DNA of 37,095 nt from an uncultured Pseudomonadota bacterium (GTDB lineage: Bacteria > Pseudomonadota > Gammaproteobacteria > Burkholderiales > Rhodocyclaceae): contig CAISUK010000245.1 of NCBI GenBank assembly GCA_903888645.1, positions 1 to 37,095 on the forward strand, in the 5' to 3' direction. Below, piece by piece: positions 11,840 through 37,095 of this stretch. The notes under the pieces were generated by a model. It did not search any database, was not told the origin of the DNA, and worked only from the letters and a program-made list of their open reading frames with translations. A program made the translations under genes and the position numbers. Every line of letters begins with the position of its first letter. Position 1 is the first letter of the stretch.

Positions 11840-12015
11840 CAGGTTGTCCTCAAGTACATTTCACGGATGAAAACTGCGCAAATGATAGCGGCTAATTCGC
11901 TTCTCTTCCTGCGGCTCGCAAGTTCTTCGCGACTCGCCATGCAAGCCTGCCGGCTAACGTGGCAAGATATGCACCGACGCCCCGTGTCAGTATTCGTTCG
12001 TTGCAAAAGGAAAGC

Positions 12016-12822
12016 ATGGAACCAATATCCGAAACGCTTATCGAGATCGAAGACCTGCATTTCTCGTTTGGCGAAAAGAAGGTCTTTAACGGCATCAATT
12101 TGCGCATAGCGCGTGGCAAGGTGGTGGCCATCCTCGGTGTCGGCGGTTCCGGCAAGAGCACGCTGCTGCGTTTGATTGGCGGGCAACTGCGCCCGGACAG
12201 TGGCAGCGTGAAAGTTAATGGTCGGGTTGTGCATGAACTCGACCAGACTGAACTTTATGCAATGCGACGGCAGTTGGGCGTGATGTTCCAGGCTGGCGGG
12301 TTGTTCAGCGACCTGTCCGTATTCGACAACATCGCTTTTCCCATGCGCGAGCTTACCGACCTTCCCGAAGAGCTGATCTACGACCTGGTCCTGATGAAGT
12401 TGCATTCGGTCGGTTTGCGCGGCACCATTGACCTGATGCCCAACGAACTTTCGGGCGGCATGGCGCGCCGCGTAGCGCTGGCGCGGGCAATCGCGCTTGA
12501 TCCGATGTTGGCCATGTACGACGAGCCGTTCGCCGGCCTTGACCCCATTTCGCTCAACGTCATCGCGCAACTGATCCGGCGCCTGAACGATGCGCTCGGC
12601 GGGACCTCCATCGTCGTGACCTACGACGTATCGGAATCTTTGAAGGTGGTCGATTATGCCTATCTCATTCATAACGGAGTGGTCGAAGCGGAAGGCGAGT
12701 CAGCGGAACTACTGGCTTCGGCCGAGCCCTTTGTGGATCAGTTTCTCCATGCGCGCGCCAACGGGCCGGTTCCCTTTCACATGAAGACCGTCCCCTATCA
12801 GGCGGATCTGGGTATTGGTTAG
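12016..12822 (+). CDS. MlaF/Ttg2A-like ABC transporter ATP-binding protein
   Basis: MEPISETLIEIEDLHFSFGEKKVFNGINLRI; Walker A GVGGSGKST; LSGGMARRVALARAIALDPMLAMYDEPFAGLDP. ATG 12016 preferred over 11959. Confidence 0.85.
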   Translation: MEPISETLIEIEDLHFSFGEKKVFNGINLRIARGKVVAILGVGGSGKSTLLRLIGGQLRPDSGSVKVNGRVVHELDQTELYAMRRQLGVMFQAGGLFSDLSVFDNIAFPMRELTDLPEELIYDLVLMKLHSVGLRGTIDLMPNELSGGMARRVALARAIALDPMLAMYDEPFAGLDPISLNVIAQLIRRLNDALGGTSIVVTYDVSESLKVVDYAYLIHNGVVEAEGESAELLASAEPFVDQFLHARANGPVPFHMKTVPYQADLGIG

Positions 12823-12852: not shown

Positions 12853-13650
12853 GTGAACCCTTCAATCCCCAGGCCATACCCGCCGAAGCCGGCCAACGCC
12901 TACCTTTTCGCGACCTGCCTGATCGACCAGTTTGCCCCACAAGCCGGCTTGGACACGGTAAGCCTGCTGCAGCGCGAAGGCATCTCCATTCATTTTCCGG
13001 AAGCGCAGACATGCTGCGGGCAGCCGGCTTATACCAGCGGATATCCCGATGAGGCACGCATCGTAGCGCGTCGCCAGTTGGATCTCTTCCCGCAAGCCTG
13101 GCCGGTCGTGGTCCCGTCAGGATCGTGCGCCGCGATGATGCGTCACCACTATCCCAAATTGTTCGCCAATGACCCGGTTCTTTACGCCAAGGCAAATGAA
13201 CTGGCCGGACGAATCTTTGAACTCACGGAGTTTCTGATTCATGTCGTCGGTTTCAAGCGCGTCGATGTCGGCGGCTCCTGCACAGTCGCCTTGCACACCT
13301 CCTGCCACGCACGACGAGAAATGGGCGTCCATGAGACCAGCGCCGCGCTGCTTGCTGGCCTCACGCAAGTCAAGGTTGTCCGGCAGGCGCGCGCCGAGGA
13401 GTGTTGCGGCTTTGGCGGCACCTTCGCGATGCGTCATCCGGACATTTCGGCGGCCATCGTCAGCGACAAGGTGGCCAGCCTCAAGGAAAGCGGTGCTCAG
13501 CGCGTTGTCAGCGCCGATTGTGGCTGCCTGTTCAACATTCTTGGCCGTGCCGAAAAAATTGACCAGAGCGCAGCGAAGGGGACGCCATCGCTGCCCGGTG
13601 AGCATATCGCCAGTTTCCTCTGGCGTCGCACCAGTGGAGGCGAAGCGTGA
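12853..13650 (+). CDS. lutA: Lactate utilization protein A / (Fe-S)-binding CCG-domain protein
   Basis: YLFATCLIDQFAPQAG, TCCGQPAYTSGY, HTSCHARREMGV, EECCGFGGTFAMRHPDIS, SADCGCLFNI: two CCG domains; followed by lutC and lutB. GTG start. Confidence 0.9.
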   Translation: MNPSIPRPYPPKPANAYLFATCLIDQFAPQAGLDTVSLLQREGISIHFPEAQTCCGQPAYTSGYPDEARIVARRQLDLFPQAWPVVVPSGSCAAMMRHHYPKLFANDPVLYAKANELAGRIFELTEFLIHVVGFKRVDVGGSCTVALHTSCHARREMGVHETSAALLAGLTQVKVVRQARAEECCGFGGTFAMRHPDISAAIVSDKVASLKESGAQRVVSADCGCLFNILGRAEKIDQSAAKGTPSLPGEHIASFLWRRTSGGEA

Positions 13651-14318
13651 GTGCGCGAGAGAATATTCTTGGCCGATTGCGCCGCGCCCCGGCTGGCGCT
13701 CCGGTGCCGTTGCCGGATGTCGCTGCGTGGTTCGCCACAACCCCTGTTGAGGACATCGCCACCCGTGCCACCCGCTTCAAAGCCAATATCGAAGCAGCCC
13801 ACGCGGAAGTCCATGAAACCAATGCTGCTGACTGGCCGTCGCTGCTTCTAGAAATTGCCGTGCAGAAGGGTCTGGGCAGGCTGCTCGTCGGCCACGGGAC
13901 AGCGCAGGCAGAGGTGCTGCGCTCGCAGCCGCAGCATCAGCTCAAGCTGGTCAGCTACGAACAACCGGCTGCGACGTGGCGCAGCGAATTGTTCGAAAAC
14001 ATCGACTGCGCGCTGACCGCTGCGCGAAGTGCCATAGCGTCCACCGGTAGCCTGATTCTCTGGCCTGACGCCAGCGAGCCGCGCCTGATGTCGCTGGTGC
14101 CGCCGGTGCATTTCGTGCTGCTCGACGCCGCGAATATTCACGCTGACCTGCACGCGGCGATGACCAACGAACGCTGGGCAGAGGCCATGCCGACCAATGC
14201 GCTGGTCATTTCCGGGCCGTCGAAGACCGCCGACATCCAGCAAACGCTGGCCTATGGCGCGCACGGGCCGCGCGAACTGATCGTGCTGCTGTGCCACCGC
14301 GGCGCAAAGTCATCGTGA
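13647..14318 (+). CDS. lutC: Lactate utilization protein C (LUD domain)
   Basis: MSARENILGRLRRA...STGSLILWPDASEPRLMSLVPPVHFVLLDAANIHADL...NALVISGPSKTADIQQTLAYGAHGPRELIVLL. Confidence 0.9.
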   Translation: MSARENILGRLRRAPAGAPVPLPDVAAWFATTPVEDIATRATRFKANIEAAHAEVHETNAADWPSLLLEIAVQKGLGRLLVGHGTAQAEVLRSQPQHQLKLVSYEQPAATWRSELFENIDCALTAARSAIASTGSLILWPDASEPRLMSLVPPVHFVLLDAANIHADLHAAMTNERWAEAMPTNALVISGPSKTADIQQTLAYGAHGPRELIVLLCHRGAKSS

Positions 14319-15748
14319 GCCAGAATCAGACGGTCCATTTTCACCCGGCTGAAGGTTTTGCCGAGCGCAGCCGCGCCGCCGTCAATGACGCGCACTTGCG
14401 GCGCAGCTTCCGCGGGGCCATGGATTTCCTCCAGGCCAAGCGACTGTCGCAGTTTCCCGATGCCGATGAGCTGTCGGCGCTCCGCGATCTCGGCAAAGCT
14501 ATCCGCCTCCATGCGCTGGCCAATCTGCCCGACTTGCTTGAACAACTTGAGGCCAAACTGCAGGCGAATGGCATACAAGTCCATTGGGCGGAAACACCCG
14601 ACCAAGCCAACGCCATCGTACTGGACATCGCCCACCGCCATGATGCCAAAAACATGGTCAAGGGCAAGTCGATGGTCAGCGAGGAAATCGGTCTCAACCA
14701 CGCCATGGAGGTGGCGGGCATCGAAGCGCTGGAAACCGACATGGGCGAATACATCGTCCAACTCGCTGGCGAGGCGCCTTCACACATCATCATGCCGGCG
14801 ATCCACAAAACCAGACAGCAGATCGCCGAGCTGTTCGCTGCCAAGGTGCCCGGTGTTGCCTACACGGACAACGTTGACGAGCTGATCCGGATCGGCCGCG
14901 ACGTGCTGCGCAAGAAATTTGCCGCCGCCGAAATCGGACTCTCCGGGGTCAATTTCGCGGTCGCCGAGACCGGCACGCTGTACCTCGTCGAAAACGAAGG
15001 CAACGGTCGCATGTGCACGTCCGTACCGAAGGTCCATATCGCCGTCACCGGCATCGAAAAAGTGGTCGCCAAGCTAGAACACGTGGCGCTGCTCAATATT
15101 CTGCTGCCGCGCTCGGCCACCGGGCAGGCCGTGGAAACCTACCAGAACTTCATCAGCGGGCCACGCAAGCCGGACGAACTCGACGGGCCGGACGAGGTGC
15201 ACCTGATCCTGCTCGATAATGGCCGTACTCAGGCTTATGCCGATGTCCAGTTACGGGCGACGTTGCAATGCATCCGTTGCGGCGCCTGCATGAACCATTG
15301 CCCGGTCTATGCGCGCATCGGCGGTCATGCCTACGGCACAACTTATCCCGGGCCGATTGGCGCCATCATCTCGCCGCACCTGCTCGGCCTCGAGGCGACT
15401 TACGCACTGGCGACGGCGTCGAGTTTATGCGGCGCCTGCGTCGAAGTCTGTCCGGTACGCATCCCGATCACCGACATCCTGATCCGTTTACGCAACGAAG
15501 CCCAGGCCGCCAGCGCCGGTAAATTGCGCGGCGGCGGCAGGGCCCGCAAGCCCTTGCAGAGTTCGATCTGGCTGGTATGGTCGTGGATTTACGGTCAGCC
15601 ATGGCTGTACCGCATCGTGTCTTGGTTGATGAGCCGTGGCCGTGCACTGGCACCCTCGAATCAGGGCGCCTGGACGCGAAGCCGAACGCCGCTCAACCCT
15701 GCGCCGCAGCGGCTCCGCGATTTGCTGCGTCGGCCTGCCAGCGGTTAG
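14315..15748 (+). CDS. lutB: Lactate utilization iron-sulfur protein B
   Basis: GTG at 14315 (GTGA overlap with the lutC stop); HDAKNMVKGKSMVSEEIGLNHAME, AETGTLYLVENEGNGRM, two 4Fe-4S motifs CIRCGACMNHCP and CGACVEVCPV. Confidence 0.92.
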   Translation: MSQNQTVHFHPAEGFAERSRAAVNDAHLRRSFRGAMDFLQAKRLSQFPDADELSALRDLGKAIRLHALANLPDLLEQLEAKLQANGIQVHWAETPDQANAIVLDIAHRHDAKNMVKGKSMVSEEIGLNHAMEVAGIEALETDMGEYIVQLAGEAPSHIIMPAIHKTRQQIAELFAAKVPGVAYTDNVDELIRIGRDVLRKKFAAAEIGLSGVNFAVAETGTLYLVENEGNGRMCTSVPKVHIAVTGIEKVVAKLEHVALLNILLPRSATGQAVETYQNFISGPRKPDELDGPDEVHLILLDNGRTQAYADVQLRATLQCIRCGACMNHCPVYARIGGHAYGTTYPGPIGAIISPHLLGLEATYALATASSLCGACVEVCPVRIPITDILIRLRNEAQAASAGKLRGGGRARKPLQSSIWLVWSWIYGQPWLYRIVSWLMSRGRALAPSNQGAWTRSRTPLNPAPQRLRDLLRRPASG

Positions 15749-16921: not shown

Positions 16922-18172
16922 ATGAACATGAGCAAAGTCAGCATCATCGGTGCTTACAACACCGAATTCGGGGCCTTCGTGAATAAGGACAAGGCAACCG
17001 GTCTGGTGACCGATACCAAGACCTACTACGATCTACTGGTCGAGGCCGGGCGCGGCGCCATTGCCGATGCCGGTTTGGAAGCCAAGGACATTGACGCCAT
17101 CTATGTCGGCTCGTGTTCGCCGGCCTCTTTTGCCAATCAGGAGCATGTCGCACCGATCGCGGCGGAAATCCATCCCGATTTACGCTTCAAGCCGATGACC
17201 CGCTGCGAGTGCGCCTGCGCTTCGTCGTCGGTGGCGCTCTACGATGGCATTTATGCCGTCGAGGCCGGCCGCGCCAGGCATGTGCTTGTCATCGGCGTCG
17301 AAAAGATGAACCTCTTGCCGACACCGCAAATGACGCACGTCTTGGCCTGCTGTTCGCACTGGCCGAGCGAAGGCTCGAAGGGCTGGTCATTTCCGGCGCT
17401 GTTCGCCGAATACGCCAAGGGCTATCAGGCTCAATACAAGATTCCGAACTCGGAACTGGAAAAGATGTTGTGGACGGCGGGTGCGCTATGCTACAAAAAC
17501 GGCGCCGAGAATCCGCTGGCGCACGTCCGCAATGGACCGGCGACAGTCGAAGCGATCATGAAGCTCAACGAACTCGATGCGCGCGGCAAGTGCAAGAACA
17601 TGATGATCGCTCCACCATTGCGCCTGCATGACTGTTCGCTCGTTTCGGACGGCGCCGCTGCCTTGGTGATCACCTTGACAACGAACGTCAGCAACCGCCA
17701 GCGTGCCGTGGAAATCGCCGGGATTGGCCATTCAGTGGAGCGCCTGCCGGAGAATGTGCGTCCCAATATGCATGAACTGATGGCTGGCAAGGACGCCGCC
17801 GCCAAGGCCTACAAGGAGGCAGGCATTACGGCGAGCGACATCGATTTTGCCGAAGTCCATGATTGCTTTACGATCAACCAGATTCTGTCGACCGAGGCGC
17901 TCGGTCTTTCTGCAGATGGCCGGGCTGGTTACGACTACCTTGACGGCCGCTTCACGCGGGACGACAAAGTGGCGGTCAACTTGTCGGGCGGCCTGAAGTC
18001 GAAGGGCCATCCGGTCGGTGCCACCGGCGCCTCCATGCACACGCTCATCTACAAGCAACTGATCGGCGAGGCGATTGGCGTCAAGGCGAAGAAGGCGGAT
18101 ATTGGCGTGGCATTCAATGTCGGCGGTTCTGCGGTCACCAACTGTGTCAGCGTATTGAGAAGACTGTCATGA
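16922..18172 (+). CDS. SCP2-type thiolase / acetyl-CoA acetyltransferase family
   Basis: MSKVSIIGAYNTEFG...MTRCECACASSSVALYDGI (active Cys), EVHDCFTINQILSTEALGL, NLSGGLKSKGHPVGATGASMH; RBS-like GAAAGGA before ATG 16922/16928. Confidence 0.88.
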   Translation: MNMSKVSIIGAYNTEFGAFVNKDKATGLVTDTKTYYDLLVEAGRGAIADAGLEAKDIDAIYVGSCSPASFANQEHVAPIAAEIHPDLRFKPMTRCECACASSSVALYDGIYAVEAGRARHVLVIGVEKMNLLPTPQMTHVLACCSHWPSEGSKGWSFPALFAEYAKGYQAQYKIPNSELEKMLWTAGALCYKNGAENPLAHVRNGPATVEAIMKLNELDARGKCKNMMIAPPLRLHDCSLVSDGAAALVITLTTNVSNRQRAVEIAGIGHSVERLPENVRPNMHELMAGKDAAAKAYKEAGITASDIDFAEVHDCFTINQILSTEALGLSADGRAGYDYLDGRFTRDDKVAVNLSGGLKSKGHPVGATGASMHTLIYKQLIGEAIGVKAKKADIGVAFNVGGSAVTNCVSVLRRLS

Positions 18173-18480
18173 AGACGATCACTTACAACGATATCGAATT
18201 CACGATAGTCAAGTCCGGCAAAGGTTGGGAAATCGCCCGCAAACTAACGGATGGAACATTAGCCCAAGTTGGTGCGGGTCTTTTCGAAGGCGTTGCCGAT
18301 GGAGAAGCCGAAGCGCGGGCGGTTGCGCTTGTCAAGACGGTGTTCCCGGTCGGCATCAAATCAGTCGGGCCGGATGTCACGCATCCGAACATGGTTGGCG
18401 ACCTCAAGATCGTCGGACCCGATGTCGCGCATCCGAATTTCATTTATTGGAGCAAGGACAGCACTTCTTTCGCCAGGTAG
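18169..18480 (+). CDS. Small protein with duplicated VGPDV(T/A)HPN motif
   Basis: 103 aa, ATGA overlap with the thiolase stop; internal 16-aa duplication KSVGPDVTHPNMVGDL/KIVGPDVAHPNFIYWS. Confidence 0.75.
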   Translation: MKTITYNDIEFTIVKSGKGWEIARKLTDGTLAQVGAGLFEGVADGEAEARAVALVKTVFPVGIKSVGPDVTHPNMVGDLKIVGPDVAHPNFIYWSKDSTSFAR

Positions 18481-18539: not shown

Positions 18540-19334
18540 ATGGAAATCAAAGGTAGCGTAGCTCTCGTGACCGGGGGCGGCAATGGCATCGGCGAGGCCG
18601 TTGCCAAGTTCTTTGCCAGGAACGGCGCCAAGGTTGCCGTCGTCGACATGGTGCAGAAGAACATCGACCGCGTTGTCAGCGAGATCAAGGAAGCCGGTGG
18701 TGAAGTCATCGGCGTGCAGGCCAATGTCACCAGCGAAGCGGATACGGCACGTTATATCAAGGCGACCTTGGAGGCGTTCGGCCAACTCAATATCGCTGTG
18801 GCATGCGCCGGAATCATCCGCGACGGCACCATGCTGACGCTCGACAAGGAAACCGGCAAGGTCTCGCGCAAGATGGGCCTCGACAAATGGCAACCGGTAA
18901 TTGACGTCAATCTCACTGGTACCTTCCTGACTCTGCGCGACGCCGCCGAGGCGATGGTCAATGGCGGATGGGAAGGATTGCTGGTGCCGATTTCCTCGGT
19001 CAACAAGGTCGGTCAGATCGGGCAGCTCAATTACTCTTCGACCAAGGTTGCCGACGCCCTGATGCCCAAGATCATCATCGGCGAATTCCTCATGCGCGGC
19101 ATTCGCAATATCCGCTGCGTCGGCATCGCCCCGGGCTATACGGCGACTCCGATGCTGACCGGCATGAATCAGGAAGCGCTGCGCAGCATCCTGGAGGACG
19201 TGCATATCGGCCGACTGGTCGAACCCGACGAGATCGCCGCCATGATCGGCCACTGTGTTGTGAACGGCGCCCTCAACGCGACGACCATCGAGATCACCGG
19301 CGGCCTGTGCAATTCCAAGGGAATCGCCAAGTAG
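18540..19334 (+). CDS. Short-chain dehydrogenase/reductase
   Basis: LVTGGGNGIGEAVAKFF, NVTS, ISSVNKVGQIGQLNYSSTKVA (Ser/YxxxK), APGYTATPM. Confidence 0.92.
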   Translation: MEIKGSVALVTGGGNGIGEAVAKFFARNGAKVAVVDMVQKNIDRVVSEIKEAGGEVIGVQANVTSEADTARYIKATLEAFGQLNIAVACAGIIRDGTMLTLDKETGKVSRKMGLDKWQPVIDVNLTGTFLTLRDAAEAMVNGGWEGLLVPISSVNKVGQIGQLNYSSTKVADALMPKIIIGEFLMRGIRNIRCVGIAPGYTATPMLTGMNQEALRSILEDVHIGRLVEPDEIAAMIGHCVVNGALNATTIEITGGLCNSKGIAK

Positions 19335-19409: not shown

Positions 19410-21734
19410 ATGACTGAAGTCGATCTGAAAACCTTCTTCCTCGAAAAGGTTCGCCTTTTCGAGAGTTTCTTGGCCGAAAAGGTCGATGAAATCGTCGCGA
19501 GTTCCCGGTTGGCCACTTACGAGGGCAACGAGGCGATCCTTGAGACAGGGGACGAGGGCCGCTTTTTCGGCATCCTGATCACCGGTCACGCCGAGGTTTC
19601 GGTTGCCGACAATACCGGAACCCGCTCCGTCGTCACCCAGCTTGAAGCTGGCGACGTGTTCGGCGTCATGTCCTTGCTAACCGGCGATCGCATCGTTGCC
19701 GATGTCATCGCCGGCAATCGGTGCTTCGTCCTGATGATTCCCCGGGCGATATTCAATAGCCATATCCTGACCAACCCAAAGGCCGTCGGCTACCTTTCCC
19801 GGCTGCTCGCCGAGCGCACGCGGACAATGTCGGTCGACCTCGTAGACGCCCAGGCAAGGGCCGCTGCCAAGTCTGAAGATCCCTATTCACTGTCACTGAC
19901 GACCAATGTTCCGGGCAAAGTCCTGGCGCTCAACGTTGGCATCAGCCAGATTCACTTTGGCATTTACGACACGCATGACCTTGGATCCGATGTCCATGGG
20001 ATTATCGACAACGGCCTCGATAACGTGTCCAGAATACGTGTGACGGTCGGTCCGCATAGCAAAGCTTTCGAGCATCCGCCTTTCCCACTCGCCGACCTTT
20101 TCCGGGTCATGCAGGAGGCGACCAGGCTGCTCGGCGAGGCATTCACCTTTCATCCGGAGGAGGTGACGGCGGTTGGTCACCGGGTGGTCCACGGCGGCAG
20201 CAAGTTCTCCAGCGCCGTGGTCATCACGCCTGCCGTGATCGCCGACATCGAGGCGCTTTCAGTGTTTGCGCCGCTGCACAATCCGGTCAATCTCAACGGC
20301 ATACGCGAGGCGATGAAGCAGTTTCCCGGCGTGCCCCACGTCGCTGTTTTCGATACGGCCTTTCACCAGACGCTCCCACCGTACGCTTATCTCTACGGTC
20401 TGCCTTACGACCTTTACAAGAAGGACGGCATCCGTCGTTATGGGTTTCACGGCACCTCGCACCGCTTCGTCTCGCTCAAGTCGGCCGAGGTGGTCGGTCG
20501 GCCGCTAGGCGAACTGGAGATCGTCTCTTGTCACCTCGGTATCGGTGCGTCGCTCTGCGCCATCGATCATGGCCGCTCGGTTGATACGACGATGGGCATG
20601 ACCCCAACCGACGGACTGATCATGCCGAGCCGTTCAGGCAGCATCGATCCCGCAGTGATGATTCACCTCCTCGATCACCACAAAATGTCACCGGACCAGC
20701 TTTCCGACCTGATCAATACCGAGAGCGGCCTGAAGGGCATTTCCGGCATATCCAGCGACATCCACCAGATCGAGTCTGCTGCCGGCGAAGGTCACCACCG
20801 CGCCCTGCTGGCGCACAAGGCTTTTTGCTACCAGATACGCAAGAATATCGGCGCCTATGTCGCGGCGATGGGAGGCATCGATGTGCTCGCCTTTACCGGC
20901 GATATCGGCGAGACCAGTTCCACGGTGCGCAGCCTGGCCTGTCAGAGCCTTGGCTACATGGGTATCAAGCTGGACGAGGAAAAAAACCGCAACCTCGGCA
21001 AGATCCGCTCCCACGCCGTCATATCGGCGAGCGACTCGCCAGTGACCATCCTGGTCATAGCCAATGACGACGAGCGCCTGGTCGCTTGGGAAACACTGCG
21101 TTCCATCGAGCGTAACAAGCTGATCGTGGCCATGCGCGACGAGCAGGCCGAAGCACCGATCCCGATCGAAATCTCGGCTCACCATGTCCATCTGGCCCAA
21201 GCCGATGTCGACAAATTATTCGGTCCCGGGCACCAGTTGACGCCGGAGCACGAGCTTTCACAGCCAGGTCAGTTTGCCTGTGCCGAAAAATTGCATCTCG
21301 TGGGCCCAAAAGGACGCATCGCCAACATCCGCGTCCTCGGTCCGACGCGCAAGGAAACCCAGGTCGAAATCGCCATGACAGAACAATTCAAGGTCGGCAT
21401 TCAACCGCCTATCCGCGAGTCTGGCGATTTGGCCAACACCCCAGGTGTCACGCTGGAAGGGCCAGCCGGTAGCACAACCATCGAACGCGGCGTAATCTGC
21501 GCCCAGCGGCACATCCATATGTCGCCGGACGATGCCATGCGATTTCGGGTGCGCGACAAATATGTTGTCCGGGTGCGTATCGAAGGCGCCCGCGAACTGA
21601 TTTTTGGCGACGTGGTGGTTCGCGTCAATCCGAATTACCGGCTGGCGATGCATATCGACACCGACGAGGGCAATGCCGCCAATATTCGTACCGGCATGCT
21701 CGGCTACATCGAAGAAATTCAGAGCCGCCGCTGA
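19410..21734 (+). CDS. Fusion protein: cyclic nucleotide-binding domain + acetate/propionate kinase (AckA-like) + PduL-type phosphotransacylase
   Basis: Residues about 1-145 CNB-like (ILETGDEGRFFGILITGHAEVSV...LEAGDVFGVMSLLTGDRIVADVIA). From about nt 19917 AckA-like (GHRVVHGGSKFSS, APLHNPVN, VFDTAFHQTLP, RRYGFHGTSHRFVS, HLGIGASLCAID, RSGSIDPAVM, FTGDIGETSSTVR). From about nt 21150 PduL-like (ISAHHVHLAQADVDKLFGPGHQLTPEHELSQPGQFACAEKL, RVLGPTRKETQVE, CAQRHIHMSPDDAMRF, MHIDTDEGNAA). Confidence 0.92.
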   Translation: MTEVDLKTFFLEKVRLFESFLAEKVDEIVASSRLATYEGNEAILETGDEGRFFGILITGHAEVSVADNTGTRSVVTQLEAGDVFGVMSLLTGDRIVADVIAGNRCFVLMIPRAIFNSHILTNPKAVGYLSRLLAERTRTMSVDLVDAQARAAAKSEDPYSLSLTTNVPGKVLALNVGISQIHFGIYDTHDLGSDVHGIIDNGLDNVSRIRVTVGPHSKAFEHPPFPLADLFRVMQEATRLLGEAFTFHPEEVTAVGHRVVHGGSKFSSAVVITPAVIADIEALSVFAPLHNPVNLNGIREAMKQFPGVPHVAVFDTAFHQTLPPYAYLYGLPYDLYKKDGIRRYGFHGTSHRFVSLKSAEVVGRPLGELEIVSCHLGIGASLCAIDHGRSVDTTMGMTPTDGLIMPSRSGSIDPAVMIHLLDHHKMSPDQLSDLINTESGLKGISGISSDIHQIESAAGEGHHRALLAHKAFCYQIRKNIGAYVAAMGGIDVLAFTGDIGETSSTVRSLACQSLGYMGIKLDEEKNRNLGKIRSHAVISASDSPVTILVIANDDERLVAWETLRSIERNKLIVAMRDEQAEAPIPIEISAHHVHLAQADVDKLFGPGHQLTPEHELSQPGQFACAEKLHLVGPKGRIANIRVLGPTRKETQVEIAMTEQFKVGIQPPIRESGDLANTPGVTLEGPAGSTTIERGVICAQRHIHMSPDDAMRFRVRDKYVVRVRIEGARELIFGDVVVRVNPNYRLAMHIDTDEGNAANIRTGMLGYIEEIQSRR

Positions 21735-21778: not shown

Positions 21779-23545
21779 ATGGTTGCCAAAAGTACAGAGT
21801 CATCTAAGTCACTCCATCACCATCACCATCATGCTCCGGACGGACTCAGAACGATTGAAGGGATGATGACCTCGCTGCAGCAGCGGCTCGATCCGTTTGG
21901 CGTGGCGACATCGTTGCTCAACGCGCAGGTGGCGTGGATGCTGCATCCGCAAGAGCTATCGCGGTCGATCAGCGCCATTTCCGGCGATGTTCTGGCACTG
22001 CAGCAGCACCTTCTGCTGCGCGCCATGGGCATGCCCAGCGAAGCTGTGGTGACGCCTAAGGAGGGCGATGCGCGCTTCGCCGATCCGGTGTGGAGCGAAG
22101 AGCCGACATGGGAGATCATCAAGGAATCGTATCTGGCGATTACCCATCAACTTGAGGACATGCTTTTCGAGACACCCGGGCAGGCCGACAAGGAGCGTCG
22201 CCGCGCCGCTTTCTGGGTGCGCGAATGGCTCAACGCGATGGCCCCGACCAATTTCTTTCTGACCAACCCGGTCGCCATGCGCAAGTATTTCGAGACGCGC
22301 GGCGAAAGTCTGGTCAAGGGATTCGAGCATTTCATGCGCGATGCCAAGGCCAAGAATATTCGCATGGTCGAGGCCGACGCCTTCAAGGTCGGCGTCGATC
22401 TGGCGACTACTCCTGGTCATGTGGTTTTTCGCAACCGAATGGTCGAACTGCTGCACTACACGCCGACCACCGCGCAGGTACACAAGATCCCGATCGTGAT
22501 CATTACGCCGTGGATCAACAAGTTCTACATCCTCGACCTGACGCCAAAGAAGAGCCTGGTCAAATACCTGACAGATCAGGGCTACAGCGTATTCATAACC
22601 AGTTGGAAGAATCCGGACGCCGCTATGGCTGACGTCGCGTTTGACGACTACCTGCTCGACGGTGTCGATCAAGTAGTGGACGCTGCGCGCAAACTCTGCA
22701 AGTCCTCGCAAGTCCACCTGACCGGTTACTGCATCGGCGGCACCCTGGTGGCGACCTACATGGCCTGGGCCAGTCGTCATTACGGCGAAAAGGCGATGCC
22801 GGTCGCGCACTGGACGCTATTCACGACGCTGACCGATTTTTCTTCGCCTGGCGATATCGACGTTTTCATCGACGCAGGGGCGATTGCCGCGCTCGAAGAA
22901 AAGATGGCCAAGACCGGTTATCTCGATGGCGACGACATGGCTTCGAGTTTCCGCCTGTTGCGCTCCAACAGCCTCATCTGGCACTACTTCGAACAGAGCT
23001 ATCTGTTCGGCGAACCGCTGCCGCCTTTCGACGTGCTGTTCTGGAACATGGACACGACGCGCATGCCGGCGGCAATGCACTCCTTCTATCTGCGGCAGAT
23101 GTATCTGCACAACAATTTGATGAAGCGCGATGCGCTAAGCATTGCCGGAGAACTGATCGACCTGGATCTCATTACTCAGCCGCTCTACGCCGTGGCCGCC
23201 GAGGACGACCATATCGTGCCGTGGCGGCAGTCCTATCGGATCCGCAAGTACATCAATGTCGATGCGTCAGTGCGCTTTGTGCTGTCGACCTCTGGGCATA
23301 TCCTGGGAATCGTCAATCCTATGGTCAATCCACCCAAGCGGAGTTTCTGGGTGGCCGAGCCCGAGCGCAACGAACACTTCGAACATTGGTTCGTCCGCGC
23401 CGAGAAGAAGCCCGGCACTTGGTGGGAAGACTGGCTGGCCTGGCTATCGCCGCAATGCGGTCCGCTGGTGGCCGCGCCCAAGCTAGACGCCAAGACCTAT
23501 CCCGATCTCGGACCGGCGCCAGGTACCTACGTATTCGAAAAGTAG
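21779..23545 (+). CDS. phaC: Polyhydroxyalkanoate synthase (class I-like)
   Basis: 588 aa; lipase-like box GYCIGGT, TPWINKFYILDL, VFITSWKNPD, AEDDHIVPWRQSY, STSGHILGIVNP. N-terminus carries HHHHHH. Confidence 0.93.
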   Translation: MVAKSTESSKSLHHHHHHAPDGLRTIEGMMTSLQQRLDPFGVATSLLNAQVAWMLHPQELSRSISAISGDVLALQQHLLLRAMGMPSEAVVTPKEGDARFADPVWSEEPTWEIIKESYLAITHQLEDMLFETPGQADKERRRAAFWVREWLNAMAPTNFFLTNPVAMRKYFETRGESLVKGFEHFMRDAKAKNIRMVEADAFKVGVDLATTPGHVVFRNRMVELLHYTPTTAQVHKIPIVIITPWINKFYILDLTPKKSLVKYLTDQGYSVFITSWKNPDAAMADVAFDDYLLDGVDQVVDAARKLCKSSQVHLTGYCIGGTLVATYMAWASRHYGEKAMPVAHWTLFTTLTDFSSPGDIDVFIDAGAIAALEEKMAKTGYLDGDDMASSFRLLRSNSLIWHYFEQSYLFGEPLPPFDVLFWNMDTTRMPAAMHSFYLRQMYLHNNLMKRDALSIAGELIDLDLITQPLYAVAAEDDHIVPWRQSYRIRKYINVDASVRFVLSTSGHILGIVNPMVNPPKRSFWVAEPERNEHFEHWFVRAEKKPGTWWEDWLAWLSPQCGPLVAAPKLDAKTYPDLGPAPGTYVFEK

Positions 23546-30694: not shown

Positions 30695-31906
30695 TCAGGC
30701 ATAAGCCGGCGCGAACGCTTTCTCTGGATCCTCGGCCGGGCCGTCGCCGTTCCAGTACGGTGACAGCTTGCGCAACTGCGCGGCGATTGGCGGCACGGCC
30801 GCGATGACTCGGTCGATTTCCGCTTCCGTGGTCCACCGCGACAGCGAGAAGCGCGTGGTGCCGTGGGCGGCGGTATAAGGAATACCCATAGCGCGCATGA
30901 CGTGCGAAGGTTCGAGCGATCCTGAGGTGCATGCCGAACCGCTTGACGCAGCGATGCCCATCTTGTTCAGCAGCAGCAGAATCGCTTCGCCTTCGATGTA
31001 TTCGAAAGCGATGTTGCTGGTATTGGGCAGACGATTGGATGGGTCGCCGGTGACGAAGGTATTCGGCACGGCGGCGAGAACAGCGCGTTCCAGTCTGTCG
31101 CGCAGGCGCTTCACTTCGGTGTTTTCCGTGTGCATGTGCTGCAAAGCCAGTTCGGCGGCGACGCCGAGGCCGACGATGGATGCGGCGTTTTCAGTGCCGG
31201 CGCGACGTCCGCGTTCCTGATGGCCACCGCGCAGCAGAGGGCGGAAGCGCGTATTGCGGCGCAGGTAGAGCACGCCGACGCCTTTCGGTGCGTGCAGTTT
31301 GTGGCCCGACAGCGACAACATGTCGATCTTGCTACTCTTCAGATCGATCGGCAATTTGCCGACGGCTTGCACCGCATCGGTGTGGAACATGATGCCCTTG
31401 GCATGAGCGAGTTCAGCCATTTCCTCGACCGGGAAAATCGTGCCGGTTTCGTTGTTCGCCCACATCGCCGAGACGATGGCGACGCGATCGTTGAGCAGCG
31501 ATTTGTATTCGTCGAGATCGAGGCGGCCGCGCCGGTCGACCTTGAGTTTCTGGACGATGATGCCTTCCTTCTCCAGGTAGTCGCACAGCGTCAGGATGGC
31601 CGGATGCTCGACGGTGGTGGTGATGACCTGATTGCGTTCCGGTTGGGCGCGCAGTGCCGAGAGAATGGCGGTCGAATCGGCTTCGGTCCCGCAGGAGTTG
31701 AAAACTATTTCGGTATCGAACTGAGCGCCGAGCAAATTCTGCACACGCGCCCGCGCTTCCTTGAGCGCGAAGCCGACCTTGTTGCCAAAACTGTGCATCG
31801 ACGACGGGTTGCCGAACTGCTCGGTGAAGAACGGCAACATGGCTTCGACCACCGCCGGATCACAGGCCGTGGTGGCGTTGTTATCGAGATAAATCGGCTT
31901 GTCCAT
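30695..31906 (-). CDS. nifS: Cysteine desulfurase NifS
   Basis: MDKPIYLDNNATTACDPAVVEAMLPFF, HTDAVQAVGKLPID, SLSGHKLHAPKGVG, SSGSACTSGSLEPSHVM. Confidence 0.95.
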   Translation of the reverse strand: MDKPIYLDNNATTACDPAVVEAMLPFFTEQFGNPSSMHSFGNKVGFALKEARARVQNLLGAQFDTEIVFNSCGTEADSTAILSALRAQPERNQVITTTVEHPAILTLCDYLEKEGIIVQKLKVDRRGRLDLDEYKSLLNDRVAIVSAMWANNETGTIFPVEEMAELAHAKGIMFHTDAVQAVGKLPIDLKSSKIDMLSLSGHKLHAPKGVGVLYLRRNTRFRPLLRGGHQERGRRAGTENAASIVGLGVAAELALQHMHTENTEVKRLRDRLERAVLAAVPNTFVTGDPSNRLPNTSNIAFEYIEGEAILLLLNKMGIAASSGSACTSGSLEPSHVMRAMGIPYTAAHGTTRFSLSRWTTEAEIDRVIAAVPPIAAQLRKLSPYWNGDGPAEDPEKAFAPAYA

Positions 31907-31908
31907 GT

Positions 31909-32829
31909 TCAGACGCTCGCGTGGGCCAGCATCGCTGCCGGCAGCACCTGCACCAGTTCGCCGAGCGCTTCACAGAGCTTGGTCTGGACGCCGCCGAGCG
32001 TCGCCGCTTCCATCATGCAACCGACGCAGGCGCCCTTGAGATTGACATAGATGTTGCGGCCGACGACTTCGACGATTTCGATGTCGCCGTGGTCACGCTG
32101 CAGCATCGGACGGATTTCCTCGACGACTTCTTCAATCCGGCGCATGCGCTGGAAGTTGGTCATTTTCGGTGCTGCCACTGGCTTACTTGCGTTCATGACT
32201 TCGGGCTTGGCTGGCGGTGCGCAGACCGGCGCCGCCGTGACAATTTCGCTCTCCTGATCGCAGTCGTCAGCGACCATGGCGAGGATTTCCTCGATGCCTT
32301 CGTGGCACGACGAACAGCCGCCGCCGGCCTTGGTGTAGTTGGTGACCTGCTCGACCTTCGTCAGTCCATTGGCGCGCACTACGTCCTCGATCATCACCGC
32401 GTCGATGGCGAAGCATTTGCAGATCAGCGCGCCTTCTTCGTGGTCGTCTTTCCATTCCTCGCCACGGTAGTTGGCGATGGCCGCCTGCAGGGCTTCGCGG
32501 CCCATTACCGAACAGTGCATTTTTTCTGGCGGCAGGCCGTCGAGGTAATCGGCGATGTCCTGGTTACTGACCTTGAGCGCGGCGTCGAGCGTCATGCCCT
32601 TGATGATCTCGGTGAGGGCAGACGAAGAGGCGATCGCGGAGCCGCAACCGAAGGTCTGGAAGTGGGCGTCGAGAATTGTTTCGTTGGCCGGATCGACCTT
32701 GAGCATCAGGCGCAGCGCATCGCCGCATTTGATCGAACCGACATCGCCAACGGCGTTGCTGCCTTCGAGCGGGCCGGCGTTGCGCGGGCTGAAAAAGTGT
32801 TCGCGGACCTTGTCTGAATATTCCCACAT
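31909..32829 (-). CDS. nifU: Fe-S scaffold protein NifU
   Basis: [39 protein letters not shown]; central CKC...GGGCSSC; C-terminal NFU domain CVGCMMEA. Confidence 0.95.
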
Positions 32830-32847
32830 GGCATCTTCCTTTCGTTG

Positions 32848-33171
32848 TCAGGCGGAAAAAGACTGGCCGCAGGCGCACGAGGCGCTGGCATTCGGGTTGC
32901 TGAACTTGAAACCGGTCTGGGTCAGGCTGTCGATGAAGTCGACAGTGACACCTTCCAGCATCGGCCGGCTCATGGGGTCGACCAGCAATTTGCAGCCGCT
33001 GATGTCGAACTCGAAATCGTCCTCGCCCTTTTCCTGTTCGAGGCGCAGGCCGTATTGCAACCCGGAACAGCCGCCTCCAGAAACGAAGATGCGCAGGCCG
33101 ACGACCGGATTCTCGGCGCCCTTGATAAAACGCTGCATGGCTTTTGCGGCACTGGGAGTGAGTTCGATCAT
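32848..33171 (-). CDS. IscA/HesB-family Fe-S assembly protein in nif cluster
   Basis: MIELTPSAAKAMQRFIKG...GGCSGLQYGL...CACGQSFSA; ATG at 33171. Confidence 0.92.
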   Translation of the reverse strand: MIELTPSAAKAMQRFIKGAENPVVGLRIFVSGGGCSGLQYGLRLEQEKGEDDFEFDISGCKLLVDPMSRPMLEGVTVDFIDSLTQTGFKFSNPNASASCACGQSFSA

Positions 33172-33309
33172 TGCGGTTTCTCCTGGGAACGAGGGTTGTG
33201 ACACCGTCGTTGCAATCGGCGTGCCAGAAGCGGGAATCCGCGCAAACCCTTGTGCAGAGCGGGTTGGCCTGATTCGATCAGGGATGGCGGCTTGTCGCCA
33301 ATGCGACAA

Positions 33310-33735
33310 TCAACCCAGAATCACGGTGTAAGCGCGACGTACCAATTCGAGTTCGACAGTGGGCAGACCGCGTGCTTCGGTGATAGCGACGAAACGTCCG
33401 CCGATCGCTTCGGCGGCGTCGAAAGGCGGATCGATGGCGGTGAATTCGGCGAGCAATACCGGCACGGTGCCATGCGGTGTGTCGACTTCAGCGTAGTAAT
33501 CGGCGGTGGCGCGCAAGTCGCCGTGAGCCAAGCCCAGCCGCTGTTCGGCCTGCCGCAGAACCGGCGCTGGATGGGCGACGACGCTGCTTTGCGGAGCGTC
33601 CTCGTCGCGTACCGCCGAAAACGTCGGCAAGGCGGTGAAGGCCAGCAGGGTATCGGCGAAACGCAGGAATCGCGTGCGGGCGCTGGTGGCCTGCTTGTGA
33701 TAAAGAATCAGGCGCGGTGCCAGGGCCGCGCTCAT
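33310..33735 (-). CDS. Hypothetical nif-cluster protein
   Basis: MSAALAPRLILYHKQATSARTRFLRFADTLLAFTALPTFSAV...; in tight minus-strand array. Confidence 0.7.
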   Translation of the reverse strand: MSAALAPRLILYHKQATSARTRFLRFADTLLAFTALPTFSAVRDEDAPQSSVVAHPAPVLRQAEQRLGLAHGDLRATADYYAEVDTPHGTVPVLLAEFTAIDPPFDAAEAIGGRFVAITEARGLPTVELELVRRAYTVILG

Positions 33736-33748
33736 GTCATTGTCAAAC

Positions 33749-34108
33749 TCACTGCGGCATCTCAAGCAGGCGCGGTTCGCATTTCAGCGCCGCCGGCTCG
33801 CCCCAGGCGATGATTGCCTCGACGAACCAGCCCGGCCGCTTTGGATGGGGTGCGAGCAAATCGAACTCGGCATAGACACGGCCATCGGCACGCAGATCGA
33901 TCATGCCGTTGCGCGGATCGCCGCGCCAGCGGGCGATCAGGCTTTCTTCGCCGGAATAGGCATCGCGCTGCAGCGAAAATTGCCCGCTGTCCCATGCCGG
34001 TGTCGGCAACTCCAGGCCGATCTGCGCGGCTTCGCGGCGCAGCCCCGCCAGCACGGTTTCGCCGACCGCGCGGCCGGCGACGATGCGCTGTTCCAGCGTT
34101 GCAGTCAC
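33749..34108 (-). CDS. Hypothetical nif-cluster protein (GTG start, GTGA overlap with fdxB)
   Basis: (V)TATLEQRIVAGRAVGETVLAGLRREAAQIGLELPTPAWDSGQFSLQRD... Confidence 0.7.
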   Translation of the reverse strand: MTATLEQRIVAGRAVGETVLAGLRREAAQIGLELPTPAWDSGQFSLQRDAYSGEESLIARWRGDPRNGMIDLRADGRVYAEFDLLAPHPKRPGWFVEAIIAWGEPAALKCEPRLLEMPQ

Positions 34109-34398
34109 GCCTCGACGGCGGCGTAGGTGTAACAGCCCTTCGGACAAACACGGCCGCAGGCCCCGCAGCCGATGCAGTCGGCGGCGTTGGCGATGGACAT
34201 GACCATGGCGTTGTCGTCATCGTCTTCCCAATCCTCGTCGGCTTCCATGTCTTCGCCGCGTTCGACCAGATCGAGCACCTGGCGCGGGCAAACCTTGTAG
34301 CAGCGGCCGCAGCCGATGCATTTCTTCTGATTCAGGTCGGCGACGAATTCCGGGATCCATTCGAAACCGCCGCGGGTAAGTCCGATAATTGCACTCAT
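34105..34398 (-). CDS. fdxB: Nif-specific ferredoxin III (two 4Fe-4S motifs)
   Basis: CIGCGRCYKVCP, acidic linker, CIGCGACGRVCP. Confidence 0.9.
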   Translation of the reverse strand: MSAIIGLTRGGFEWIPEFVADLNQKKCIGCGRCYKVCPRQVLDLVERGEDMEADEDWEDDDDNAMVMSIANAADCIGCGACGRVCPKGCYTYAAVEA

Positions 34399-34409
34399 GT
34401 TGCTGCTCC

Positions 34410-34619
34410 TTAACCTTGCTGCACGGCAGTGAGGCGGGCGTTGGCCTCGGCCCAGGTCTTGCAGGCGTCATAGGTTGCCTGGGCGATGGCTGGAATGTCC
34501 TGATAGGCCGCCGGCAATCGGTCCTCGATCAGGTCGTGCAGTTCGCCGGCGCGTTCGCTGGCGATGCGCTTCAGCTTCTTGACTTCCCTTTCCAGTTCCT
34601 TGGCGTCTTCTGCGCTCAT
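34410..34619 (-). CDS. DUF683-type nif-associated small protein
   Basis: MSAEDAKELEREVKKLKRIASERAGELHDLIEDRLPAAYQDIPAIAQATYDAC; position between fdxB and DUF269. Confidence 0.85.
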   Translation of the reverse strand: MSAEDAKELEREVKKLKRIASERAGELHDLIEDRLPAAYQDIPAIAQATYDACKTWAEANARLTAVQQG

Positions 34620-34626
34620 GATTGCC

Positions 34627-35097
34627 TCACAGGCCCGCCACTTCGGGATACTTGCCGATGATTTCGATGGCGACGGAGAGATATTTGTCGGCCTCGGTCT
34701 TCATGCGCGACAGGCTTTCGAAGCCGAAGCGATGCACATCGCGTAGCGTGCGATCGAGCACCACCAGCTTGCCGACGGTGATCAGAGTGCGGCCGAAACC
34801 TTCGTGCGACAGGTGAATCATCGGCACCGCCATCAACCCGCATTCCTTCTCGATCAGCACGGCGATACCGTTGTAGAAGGCCTTGACGCGCGCCAAGGTG
34901 ATTTCGTCGGGATCACCGATCAGCGGAATTTCCTTCTTGCGTTCCTTGGTCAGCACAAATGGGCCAAGGATCGTCTCGGGCGGCTTGCCGTCGTACTGGC
35001 CATAGCTATCCAGCGCACGCATCTGGCGCAACATTTCCTTGATGAAATCCGTGTCGAAAATCGGGTCGCGCTCGATAGCGGCGGTTGCGGATGTCAT
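34627..35097 (-). CDS. NifX-associated nitrogen fixation protein (DUF269)
   Basis: FIKEMLRQMRALDSYGQYDGKPPETILGPFVLTKERKKEIPLIGDPDEITLARVKAFYNGIAVLIEKECG; ATG at 35097. Confidence 0.92.
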   Translation of the reverse strand: MTSATAAIERDPIFDTDFIKEMLRQMRALDSYGQYDGKPPETILGPFVLTKERKKEIPLIGDPDEITLARVKAFYNGIAVLIEKECGLMAVPMIHLSHEGFGRTLITVGKLVVLDRTLRDVHRFGFESLSRMKTEADKYLSVAIEIIGKYPEVAGL

Positions 35098-35099
35098 GG

Positions 35100-35552
35100 T
35101 CAATCTCCTGTCAATGAATTCGTAGTGGTGGAATGGGAAGCGGAACTTGAACCGCACACGGCTGGATGCAGGCCGTTGCGGAAAACATGGCGATTGGAAA
35201 AGCGCAGCGCGAGTAGCCCCAAGGTCAGGCCGATGCCGGCGCCAAGTGCGGCCGCCGCGTCGCTGCCAAACCACTCCGAGCCGGCGATGGCACCGCCGAT
35301 TACACTCAACGCTGGCATCAGGTAGCCGAGCAGGGCGCCGCCGGCCACCGTTGCGGCTTCCATCTGCAATGAAATCTCGTCGCCGCTATGCATGCCCGGG
35401 GTCGCATCCACGCGCACGATCTGGGTGTTGGCGGCGGCAGCGGTGCCGCAGCTTTCCTGGCTGCGACAGCTGCCGCAGGCCGAAATGGCGGCGATGCGCA
35501 CGTCCGCCATGCCATCGGCAATGGCGACAATGCGTCCGCGGGTTTCCATCAT
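35100..35552 (-). CDS. RseC/MucC-family (SoxR-reducing-system-like) membrane protein
   Basis: METRGRIVAIADGMADVRIAAISACGSCRSQESCG (C-x2-C-x5-C), two TM segments. Start 35552 or 35549. Confidence 0.78.
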   Translation of the reverse strand: MMETRGRIVAIADGMADVRIAAISACGSCRSQESCGTAAAANTQIVRVDATPGMHSGDEISLQMEAATVAGGALLGYLMPALSVIGGAIAGSEWFGSDAAAALGAGIGLTLGLLALRFSNRHVFRNGLHPAVCGSSSASHSTTTNSLTGD

Positions 35553-36079
35553 TCCTGCCAACCCTCTTCGATCATGCGCTCGAAGCGCTCGCTGCCACCA
35601 CACTGGCGACGGATCGCCTTGTCCACCCAGGGAATGCCGCCGTCACGAACCGCCACGCACAATTGGTCGAGGATCGCTTCGATCGGCTCTTCATCGTCAA
35701 GGCGGATCGGCTGCACGCCGGCAGCAAGCAACTGGCGCACGGCGGAGCCACCGGCGGCCAGGCAGTAAACTGCGGCGCAACCCGTCAGCGCCTGGATCTT
35801 CGCGGACAACTTGTTCTCGTTGCCGTCCATCGATTCGGCGGCGAATTCGGCAACCTCGACCAGCTTGGCGCGTTCGCTGTCGAGGGCAAAAATGGCGAAG
35901 CCCTCGCTGGCGCCGAAGTGCTGATTGACCCGGGAGCGATCATTGCTGGCGAAAGCCACTTTAAGCACGGCCGGCACCAGTTCAGTGGCGGACCAGGCCA
36001 GCGCAAGGCGACGCGTGCTGGACTTCCCACTCGCGGGGGCCGTCCTGCCAGAAGACGGATCGATAGGGAGGGATGTCAT
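35549..36079 (-). CDS. nifX: Nitrogenase cofactor carrier NifX (start uncertain)
   Basis: VLKVAFASNDRSRVNQHFGASEGFAIFALDSERAKLVEVAEF...GCAAVYCLAAGGSAVRQLLAAGVQPIRLDDEEPIEAILDQL. Confidence 0.88.
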   Translation of the reverse strand: MTSLPIDPSSGRTAPASGKSSTRRLALAWSATELVPAVLKVAFASNDRSRVNQHFGASEGFAIFALDSERAKLVEVAEFAAESMDGNENKLSAKIQALTGCAAVYCLAAGGSAVRQLLAAGVQPIRLDDEEPIEAILDQLCVAVRDGGIPWVDKAIRRQCGGSERFERMIEEGWQE

Positions 36080-37095
36080 GGTGATGCCCCAGGATGAGGT
36101 TGGCGAAATCGAACAGGGCTTGCCGCGCGCCGCGATACCCGACCCAGGTGCGGGCATAGCCGCCGACCCAGTCGTACTGCGGAAAGCCGGCGCGCAACAG
36201 GGGAATGCCGAGCCGTTCGGCGGTCGGTGCGGCGTGCGAACTGCCGATAATGAATTGGGCGCCGGCAGCCTTGGCGGCTCGTTCCAGATCTTCCAGATCA
36301 CCGATGCGCACATCGGCGCGAGGAATGTCGGCCAGACAGTCGGCCTTGGCCGGCGCTACCGCGGCGACGATTTCGCAGCCGACGCCGACCAGGAATTGCG
36401 ACAGCGCCAGCAGCAGATCCGCATCGATGCCAATGGCAACCTTGGTGAAGCCGGTCATGAAATGGGTGTCGACCATCGCATCCTGCAACTGGGCGCGTTG
36501 TCGTTCGATGCGCTCGGAAACCGGTTGTCCGGAAATCTGCGCCAGCGCCTGGGTGAAAGCGTCGCAGGCATCGAGTCCGAGCAGGTGATCGAAGCGGTAA
36601 TCGGGCACGCCGGTGCGGGCCTTGAGCAGGTCGGCGGCCTTGGTCAGGGATCGACCGATCACCAAAGTTGCTGTGGATTCGCCGAGGGTTTCGATTTCGC
36701 CCTTAGGCGTGCCGCCCAGCGTCAGAGGCGTCGAATCCTGTTCGGTCAAGTGGCCATCGAGGGAGTCGCCGATGTCGGGCAAGATCACCGGCCGCAGACC
36801 GAACGCCTCGACCCAATCGCGGATCGCCTCAAGATCGCCCGGTGTCAGCATCGATGATGCGAGAATGTTGACCTGCTTGTGGCGACGACCGGCGCAGCGG
36901 GTCTCCGGCACCATAACGTCGATGATCGCTTCGAGCGCCAGCGCGTAGCCGGATTCCAGCGATCCGATGTAGTCCGGGGTATTCACCGGCACCACGGCGA
37001 TGTGCGCAAATTGCGGGTATTTCGTTCGGAACTCCCGGACCAGGCGGCGGATGTCGGTACCCTGCGTCTCAGACAATCCGGTGGTTGGCAGGCCG
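35982..37095 (-). CDS. nifN: Nitrogenase cofactor biosynthesis protein NifN (N-terminus beyond right edge)
   Basis: GLPTTGLSETQGTDIRRLVREFRTKYPQFAHIAVVPVNTPDYIGSLESGYALALEAI...; frame is open to the window edge, so the track's 37076 start is internal. Confidence 0.92.
   Translation of the reverse strand, partial: GLPTTGLSETQGTDIRRLVREFRTKYPQFAHIAVVPVNTPDYIGSLESGYALALEAIIDVMVPETRCAGRRHKQVNILASSMLTPGDLEAIRDWVEAFGLRPVILPDIGDSLDGHLTEQDSTPLTLGGTPKGEIETLGESTATLVIGRSLTKAADLLKARTGVPDYRFDHLLGLDACDAFTQALAQISGQPVSERIERQRAQLQDAMVDTHFMTGFTKVAIGIDADLLLALSQFLVGVGCEIVAAVAPAKADCLADIPRADVRIGDLEDLERAAKAAGAQFIIGSSHAAPTAERLGIPLLRAGFPQYDWVGGYARTWVGYRGARQALFDFANLILGHHHDIPPYRSVFWQDGPREWEVQHASPCAGLVRH

Follow-up and report, generated by a model that had tools for sequence, protein, structure and literature searches.

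The protein encoded at 19410..21734 (+) of the window (the whole stretch of 37,095 nucleotides that was analysed) carries an acetate kinase (AckA) domain in which the residues for phosphoryl transfer are intact but the nucleotide site is replaced, and this domain is probably no longer an ATP-dependent kinase. The protein is a 774-aa fusion encoded by a single ORF, with three domains each scoring above its Pfam cut-off. From the N- to the C-terminus these are a CNB domain (PF00027, residues 36-118, 19515..19763, +; 54 bits against a cut-off of 27.5), the AckA domain (PF00871, residues 170-559, 19917..21086, +; 421 bits against 22, and 406 bits against 293.4 for TIGR00016) and a PduL/PTAC phosphotransacylase domain with conserved zinc and phosphate ligands (PF06130, residues 585-759, 21162..21686, +). 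The initial annotation had spoken of an AckA half; AckA was indeed present, though as the middle of a three-domain ORF starting at 19410 and not as a half. Full-length homologs of the fusion were present in Rhodocyclales-type genomes. An AlphaFold model of the full-length fusion, built from a shallow alignment, reached a pLDDT of 64.5 and a pTM of 0.48, values too low for pocket geometry.

Residues of the AckA domain were numbered after M. thermophila AckA, whose sequence was taken from the PDB alignment, and the numbering was checked at N7, R91, H123, D148, H180, N211, G239, R241, D283, R285, G331 and E384. The motifs around R91, H123, D148, H180 and R241 were intact as had been claimed, and R258 (R91, 20181..20183), H290 (H123, 20277..20279), D315 (D148, 20352..20354), H347 (H180, 20448..20450) and R408 (R241, 20631..20633), all on the + strand, were kept in 79/79 sequences of the homolog alignment, as was the wider set of phosphoryl-transfer and acetate-pocket residues R91, V93, H123, D148, F179, H180, P232 and R241. 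Alignment to the M. thermophila enzyme gave the changes S10I, S12Q, K14H, N211I, G239P, T240S, R285H, G331D and E384D. The PHOSPHATE1 loop NVGISQIH (19932..19955, +) kept N175 (N7) and had I178, Q180 and H182 in place of S10, S12 and K14; on the same strand N211 of PHOSPHATE2 was replaced by I378 (20541..20543), G239 of LOOP3 by P406 (20625..20627), R285 of LOOP4 by H452 (20763..20765), G331 of the ADENOSINE loop by D498 (20901..20903; Glu in some relatives) and E384, the metal ligand position, by D554 (21069..21071). Eight of the nine nucleotide/metal motif residues of ATP-dependent AckA were replaced and N7 alone was kept. The altered motifs LNVGISQIH, HLGIG, MPSRSGS and FTGDIGE were located where the initial annotation had placed them, and the eight replaced nucleotide/metal-loop columns bore out its assignment of the substitutions to the ATP/ADP site. 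Its list of substituted motifs was real yet incomplete, with R285 to His and E384 to Asp overlooked, and the final Asp to Ser of MPSRSGS proved not to be unusual, being matched by S244 in M. thermophila AckA and by Ser in 12 of 17 canonical AckA of related genomes.

In M. thermophila AckA the beta phosphate is in contact with N211 and with G331, which also reaches the alpha phosphate; G239 forms a bond with N211, and R285 lies flat on the adenine. Single changes of N211, G239 or G331 lowered activity 6- to 200-fold, changes of R285 lowered kcat about 7-9-fold, and the hallmark residues of PHOSPHATE1 are described as strongly conserved among the ACKs of prokaryotes and eukaryotes alike (PMC4390882). 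The loss of the Ser, Lys and Asn contacts, together with the carboxylate gained beside the phosphates, speaks against ATP and would also speak against PPi; the acidic residue at G331 looks unfriendly to polyanions, PPi included.

The altered site was evaluated over 100 CNB-AckA-PduL rows (79 of the homolog set, including the window, and 21 further ones, with the same gene entering twice in some cases) against 58 AckA without a CNB domain, namely 17 canonical copies of genomes that also bear the fusion, 11 copies of related genomes, 29 taken elsewhere in the class (eight AckA-PduL fusions among these) and M. thermophila AckA. Taking at least 97% identity across the 58 comparison AckA as invariant, we obtained 47 invariant columns, of which exactly eight (S10, S12, K14, N211, G239, R285, G331 and E384) were altered in the fusion rows, and the same eight were given by the 79-row set by itself. 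These made up 8/22 of the invariant columns inside nucleotide/metal loops against 0/25 elsewhere (Fisher p=0.001, a post hoc and descriptive value, with the loops defined from literature and the test made after the sites were seen). The replacements were themselves conserved, with a hydrophobic residue at 10 in 100/100 rows, Q12 in 95/100, H14 in 90/100, I/V211 in 94/100, P239 in 91/100, H285 in 92/100, D/E331 in 97/100 and D384 in 94/100; a few members had A or H at position 331. As to whether such substitutions are common in ATP-acetate kinases, none of the 58 comparison AckA, including the 17 of the same genomes, shared any of the eight. It is therefore fair to suppose, as had been proposed, that the phosphoryl donor or acceptor could be something other than ADP/ATP, or that the kinase part is regulatory.

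The dN/dS ratio was about 0.18 for the AckA part, 0.11 for PduL and 0.22 for CNB, and judged from sequence the fusion is under selection and not decaying. A degenerating pseudogene was ruled out by the absence of stops, the dN/dS of 0.11-0.22 and the conserved replacements, and a sequencing or assembly artefact by the occurrence of identical residues in dozens of separate genomes. Phosphorylation of H14 as a universal mechanism was disfavoured by the Arg found at that position in 10/100 rows. A Thauera-type sub-clade (L061, L059, L062 and L065) carries R12, R14, V211, E331 and N384, a charge-shifted version of the site which hints that PHOSPHATE1 and residue 331 touch directly.

In a tree built without the eight altered columns, the altered fusions formed one clade (support 100/100) whose sister was L158, a full-length CNB-AckA-PduL protein that belongs to another class and retains the ATP motifs (clade plus L158, 100/99); the next branch, less well supported (93/70), comprised two-domain AckA-PduL fusions in which the motifs are likewise intact. 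As the sister and the two-domain fusions keep the ATP site, its loss is placed after the domain fusion, and most simply the replacements would have arisen once, after the three domains had been joined. The sister gene (L158 / L162:145-2481), with a canonical ATP site in the distant genome G759, offers a natural control against which to set the window protein. Two more sets of genomes from around that of L158, one of 289 and one of 199, were sampled, and a second canonical three-domain protein was not found in them. One of the two-domain fusions is located on the Polaromonas naphthalenivorans plasmid NC_008758, where it is annotated as an acetate/propionate family kinase.

For the PduL domain, residues were mapped on 5CUO, with the zinc ligands and Pi contacts as defined in PMC4784909. 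All six zinc ligands (H48, H50, E109, H157, H159 and H204) were identical in 79/79 sequences, and so were the equivalents of the phosphate ligands R103 and S127 and of Q74, Q77, Q107 and R194, the Gln77 equivalent being the residue typical of acetyl/propionyl enzymes. From these conserved ligands the PduL part should be an active phosphotransacylase. Canonical cNMP binders have a phosphate-binding cassette with FGE and a phosphate Arg; in the CNB cassette of the fusion (19650-19712, +) FGE has become FGV at residue 86 and Arg94 is present. The cassette Glu was kept in L158 and in 10/79 homologs, those of the L070-L081 group, but is missing from the others; it seems to have been lost later than the ATP site, and a change of CNB ligand may have followed that of the AckA site. 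The profile search also returned a weak match to NF058543, the mycobacterial CNB-acetyltransferase Pat, in which a CNB domain is the regulator of the acetyl-metabolism enzyme fused to it.

The fusion was present in 19 of 121 genomes sampled from the window's family. A second AckA match was detected in 18 of these 19, and all 17 of them that were examined were canonical; in G045 the match is confined to a 126-bp fragment where the contig breaks off. The second AckA adjoined a PTA_PTB-family gene in most fusion genomes examined, and the two AckA genes were separated by about 6 kb in G100 and by about 11 kb in G029. Only the fusion was matched in the window's own assembly (85% complete), where canonical AckA was not found; the contig bearing the Pta/Ptb-family gene of this genome ends at 4339 bp with no AckA start visible there.

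Upstream of the fusion the window encodes, on the + strand, a thiolase-family protein (16931..18172, Pfam; absent beside most relatives), a conserved 103-aa protein without Pfam match (18169..18480) and a short-chain dehydrogenase with profile matches of the FabG/acetoacetyl-CoA-reductase type (18540..19334), and downstream a class I-like PHA synthase (21779..23545, +; 593 bits to TIGR01838, below the cut-off of 622.65), which has a native six-histidine run near its N-terminus, SLHHHHHHAPDG. The 103-aa protein contains a repeated VGPDV(T/A)HPN motif and is 61% identical in L079. That locus (L079:2427-10087) holds both kinds of AckA in the row altered fusion, thiolase, 103-aa protein, SDR, MaoC-like/Ptb-type protein and canonical AckA, the last two identified by eye from translation, with a ThDP-enzyme-like gene upstream on the opposite strand. 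A link to PHB synthesis was rejected as the conserved function in general: of about 80 loci, L079 alone has the thiolase, the 103-aa protein and the SDR as neighbours, and the flanks vary. The PHA-type neighbours of the window (thiolase, SDR and PhaC) were missing beside most homologs. No BMC shell gene was detected among the window proteins scanned with Pfam. Further upstream lie LutA/LutC/LutB-type lactate utilisation genes (12853-15748, +) and, about 6.6 kb from the fusion, an MlaF-like ABC ATPase (11959-12822, +), which is found directly downstream of the fusion in L072 and L153 (83% identical). NifS, NifU and a nitrogenase-component-type (NifE/NifN-like) gene occupy 30695-37094 (-), and the organism probably fixes nitrogen.

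The reading that we tentatively favour, at a little under even chances, is an ATP-independent phosphotransacylase equipped with a retooled, acyl-phosphate- or acetate-binding AckA module and a CNB sensor. The PduL domain would interconvert acyl-CoA + Pi and acyl phosphate + CoA, while the AckA domain would use its intact acyl/phosphoryl pocket to bind acetate or acetyl phosphate, would no longer use ADP/ATP and, as a regulatory module together with the CNB domain, would most likely gate or channel the PduL reaction; ATP-coupled acetate activation would be left to the separate canonical AckA. We infer in this way the loss of ATP use, the ligand binding and the gating in the fusion. Against this reading, most homologs lack the cassette Glu in their CNB domain, a metal could still bind given that N7, D148 and a carboxylate at 384 are retained, and the full conservation of R91, H180 and R241 suggests that phosphoryl transfer may persist, which a pure regulator would not need. 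The same intact transfer residues, together with new residues conserved as though serving a new ligand, speak for an active kinase using another donor or acceptor (PPi/Pi, polyphosphate or a small molecule) and feeding acetyl phosphate directly to PduL. This we consider unlikely, although it has a precedent in the PPi use of the Entamoeba AckA with its altered adenosine loop (PMC5517563) and the lineage includes Dechloromonas, a genus with polyphosphate accumulators (PMC8630035). The Q-M at 331-332 and the extra Gly in PHOSPHATE2 that mark the Entamoeba enzyme are absent, the lost PHOSPHATE1 Ser and Lys, the hydrophobic residue at N211 and the acidic one at G331 all lie near the place where the beta/gamma phosphates or PPi would be, and introducing Q-M in place of G331-I332 in M. 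thermophila AckA conferred no PPi use (PMC5517563).

It is slightly more doubtful that the eight changes are a compensated set and that the protein is still an ordinary bifunctional AckA-PduL working with ATP/ADP, if perhaps slowly or with a strong bias to one direction. The site is canonical in the relatives closest in fusion type, the domain retains N7, D148 and an acidic side chain at 384, and the single mutants of M. thermophila AckA were impaired and not dead; however, all ATP motifs are hit together and the set is fixed, and the same genomes keep a canonical AckA, so that the fusion is not required for ATP-dependent activity. Improbable, in our estimate, is an acyl-phosphate phosphatase in which water would replace ADP with help from D/E331 or H14 and which, with PduL, would turn the protein into a phosphate-dependent acyl-CoA hydrolase, draining acetyl phosphate or releasing CoA without the use of ATP. 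The acidic residue nearly fixed at 331 (D or E in 97/100 rows) does sit beside an intact acyl-phosphate site, but A or H occurs there in a few members, a phosphatase precedent within the AckA family was not found and without tight gating such a drain would be a waste. That the AckA domain is merely a non-catalytic structural remnant, which dimerises the protein or links CNB to PduL, is the least probable of all and would surprise us: the nucleotide site is gone and PduL is still intact, yet the acyl-site residues are invariant in 79/79 homologs under purifying selection and other residues are newly conserved, none of which a scaffold would need.

Acetate kinase is among the most uniform of metabolic enzymes, and the altered clade is a natural test of how the phosphoryl-donor and acyl-substrate sites separate. 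It points to ATP-free sensing or handling of acetyl phosphate in Rhodocyclales-type bacteria (Zoogloea, Dechloromonas, Azonexus and Thauera), among which are bacteria of importance for wastewater treatment. Annotation at the level of TIGR00016 would name the fusion an acetate/propionate kinase and mislead metabolic models. A description of a CNB-AckA-PduL protein or of an AckA pseudokinase was not found in the open-licence literature searched, which is not proof of absence.

Compared with known systems, the AckA domain belongs to the same family as the ATP-dependent AckA of M. thermophila (1TUU/1G99) and T. maritima (2IIR), with a full-length TIGR00016 match and shared phosphoryl-transfer and acetate-pocket residues, and differs from them in its eight replaced nucleotide residues and its position between CNB and PduL. 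The Entamoeba histolytica enzyme (4H0O), described as the sole exception to ATP/ADP use among acetate kinases, likewise has, by its published description, the AckA fold with an altered ADENOSINE loop and changes at 211 and 239; in it Q323-M324 (positions 331-332) occlude the adenosine pocket, PHOSPHATE2 has an extra Gly and PPi/Pi is used (PMC5517563). The analogy with this enzyme drawn in the initial annotation did not hold at the level of residues, as the window protein has D-I at 331-332 and not Q-M (residue 332 stays I/V), HLGIG without the extra Gly and a rebuilt PHOSPHATE1. Its PduL domain shares the six zinc ligands, Arg103, Ser127, Gln74 and Gln77 with 5CUO (rPduL of PMC4784909), but forms the C-terminal part of a fusion and has His at the CoA contact K70. 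Mycobacterial Pat, with an unrelated catalytic domain, offers only an analogy of working principle. The two-domain AckA-PduL fusions (L112-L119, L159, L160 and L163), of the neighbouring clade, have the same AckA-PduL order at 41-51% identity, but are without CNB and, in those aligned, fully canonical at the nucleotide site. The sister protein of G759 (L158/L162) has the same three domains end to end at 55% identity and differs in its canonical nucleotide motifs NCGSSSMK, HLGNG, MGTRSG, NDMR and FTGGIG, in its canonical CNB FGE and in having GIGQG rather than GIGEN.
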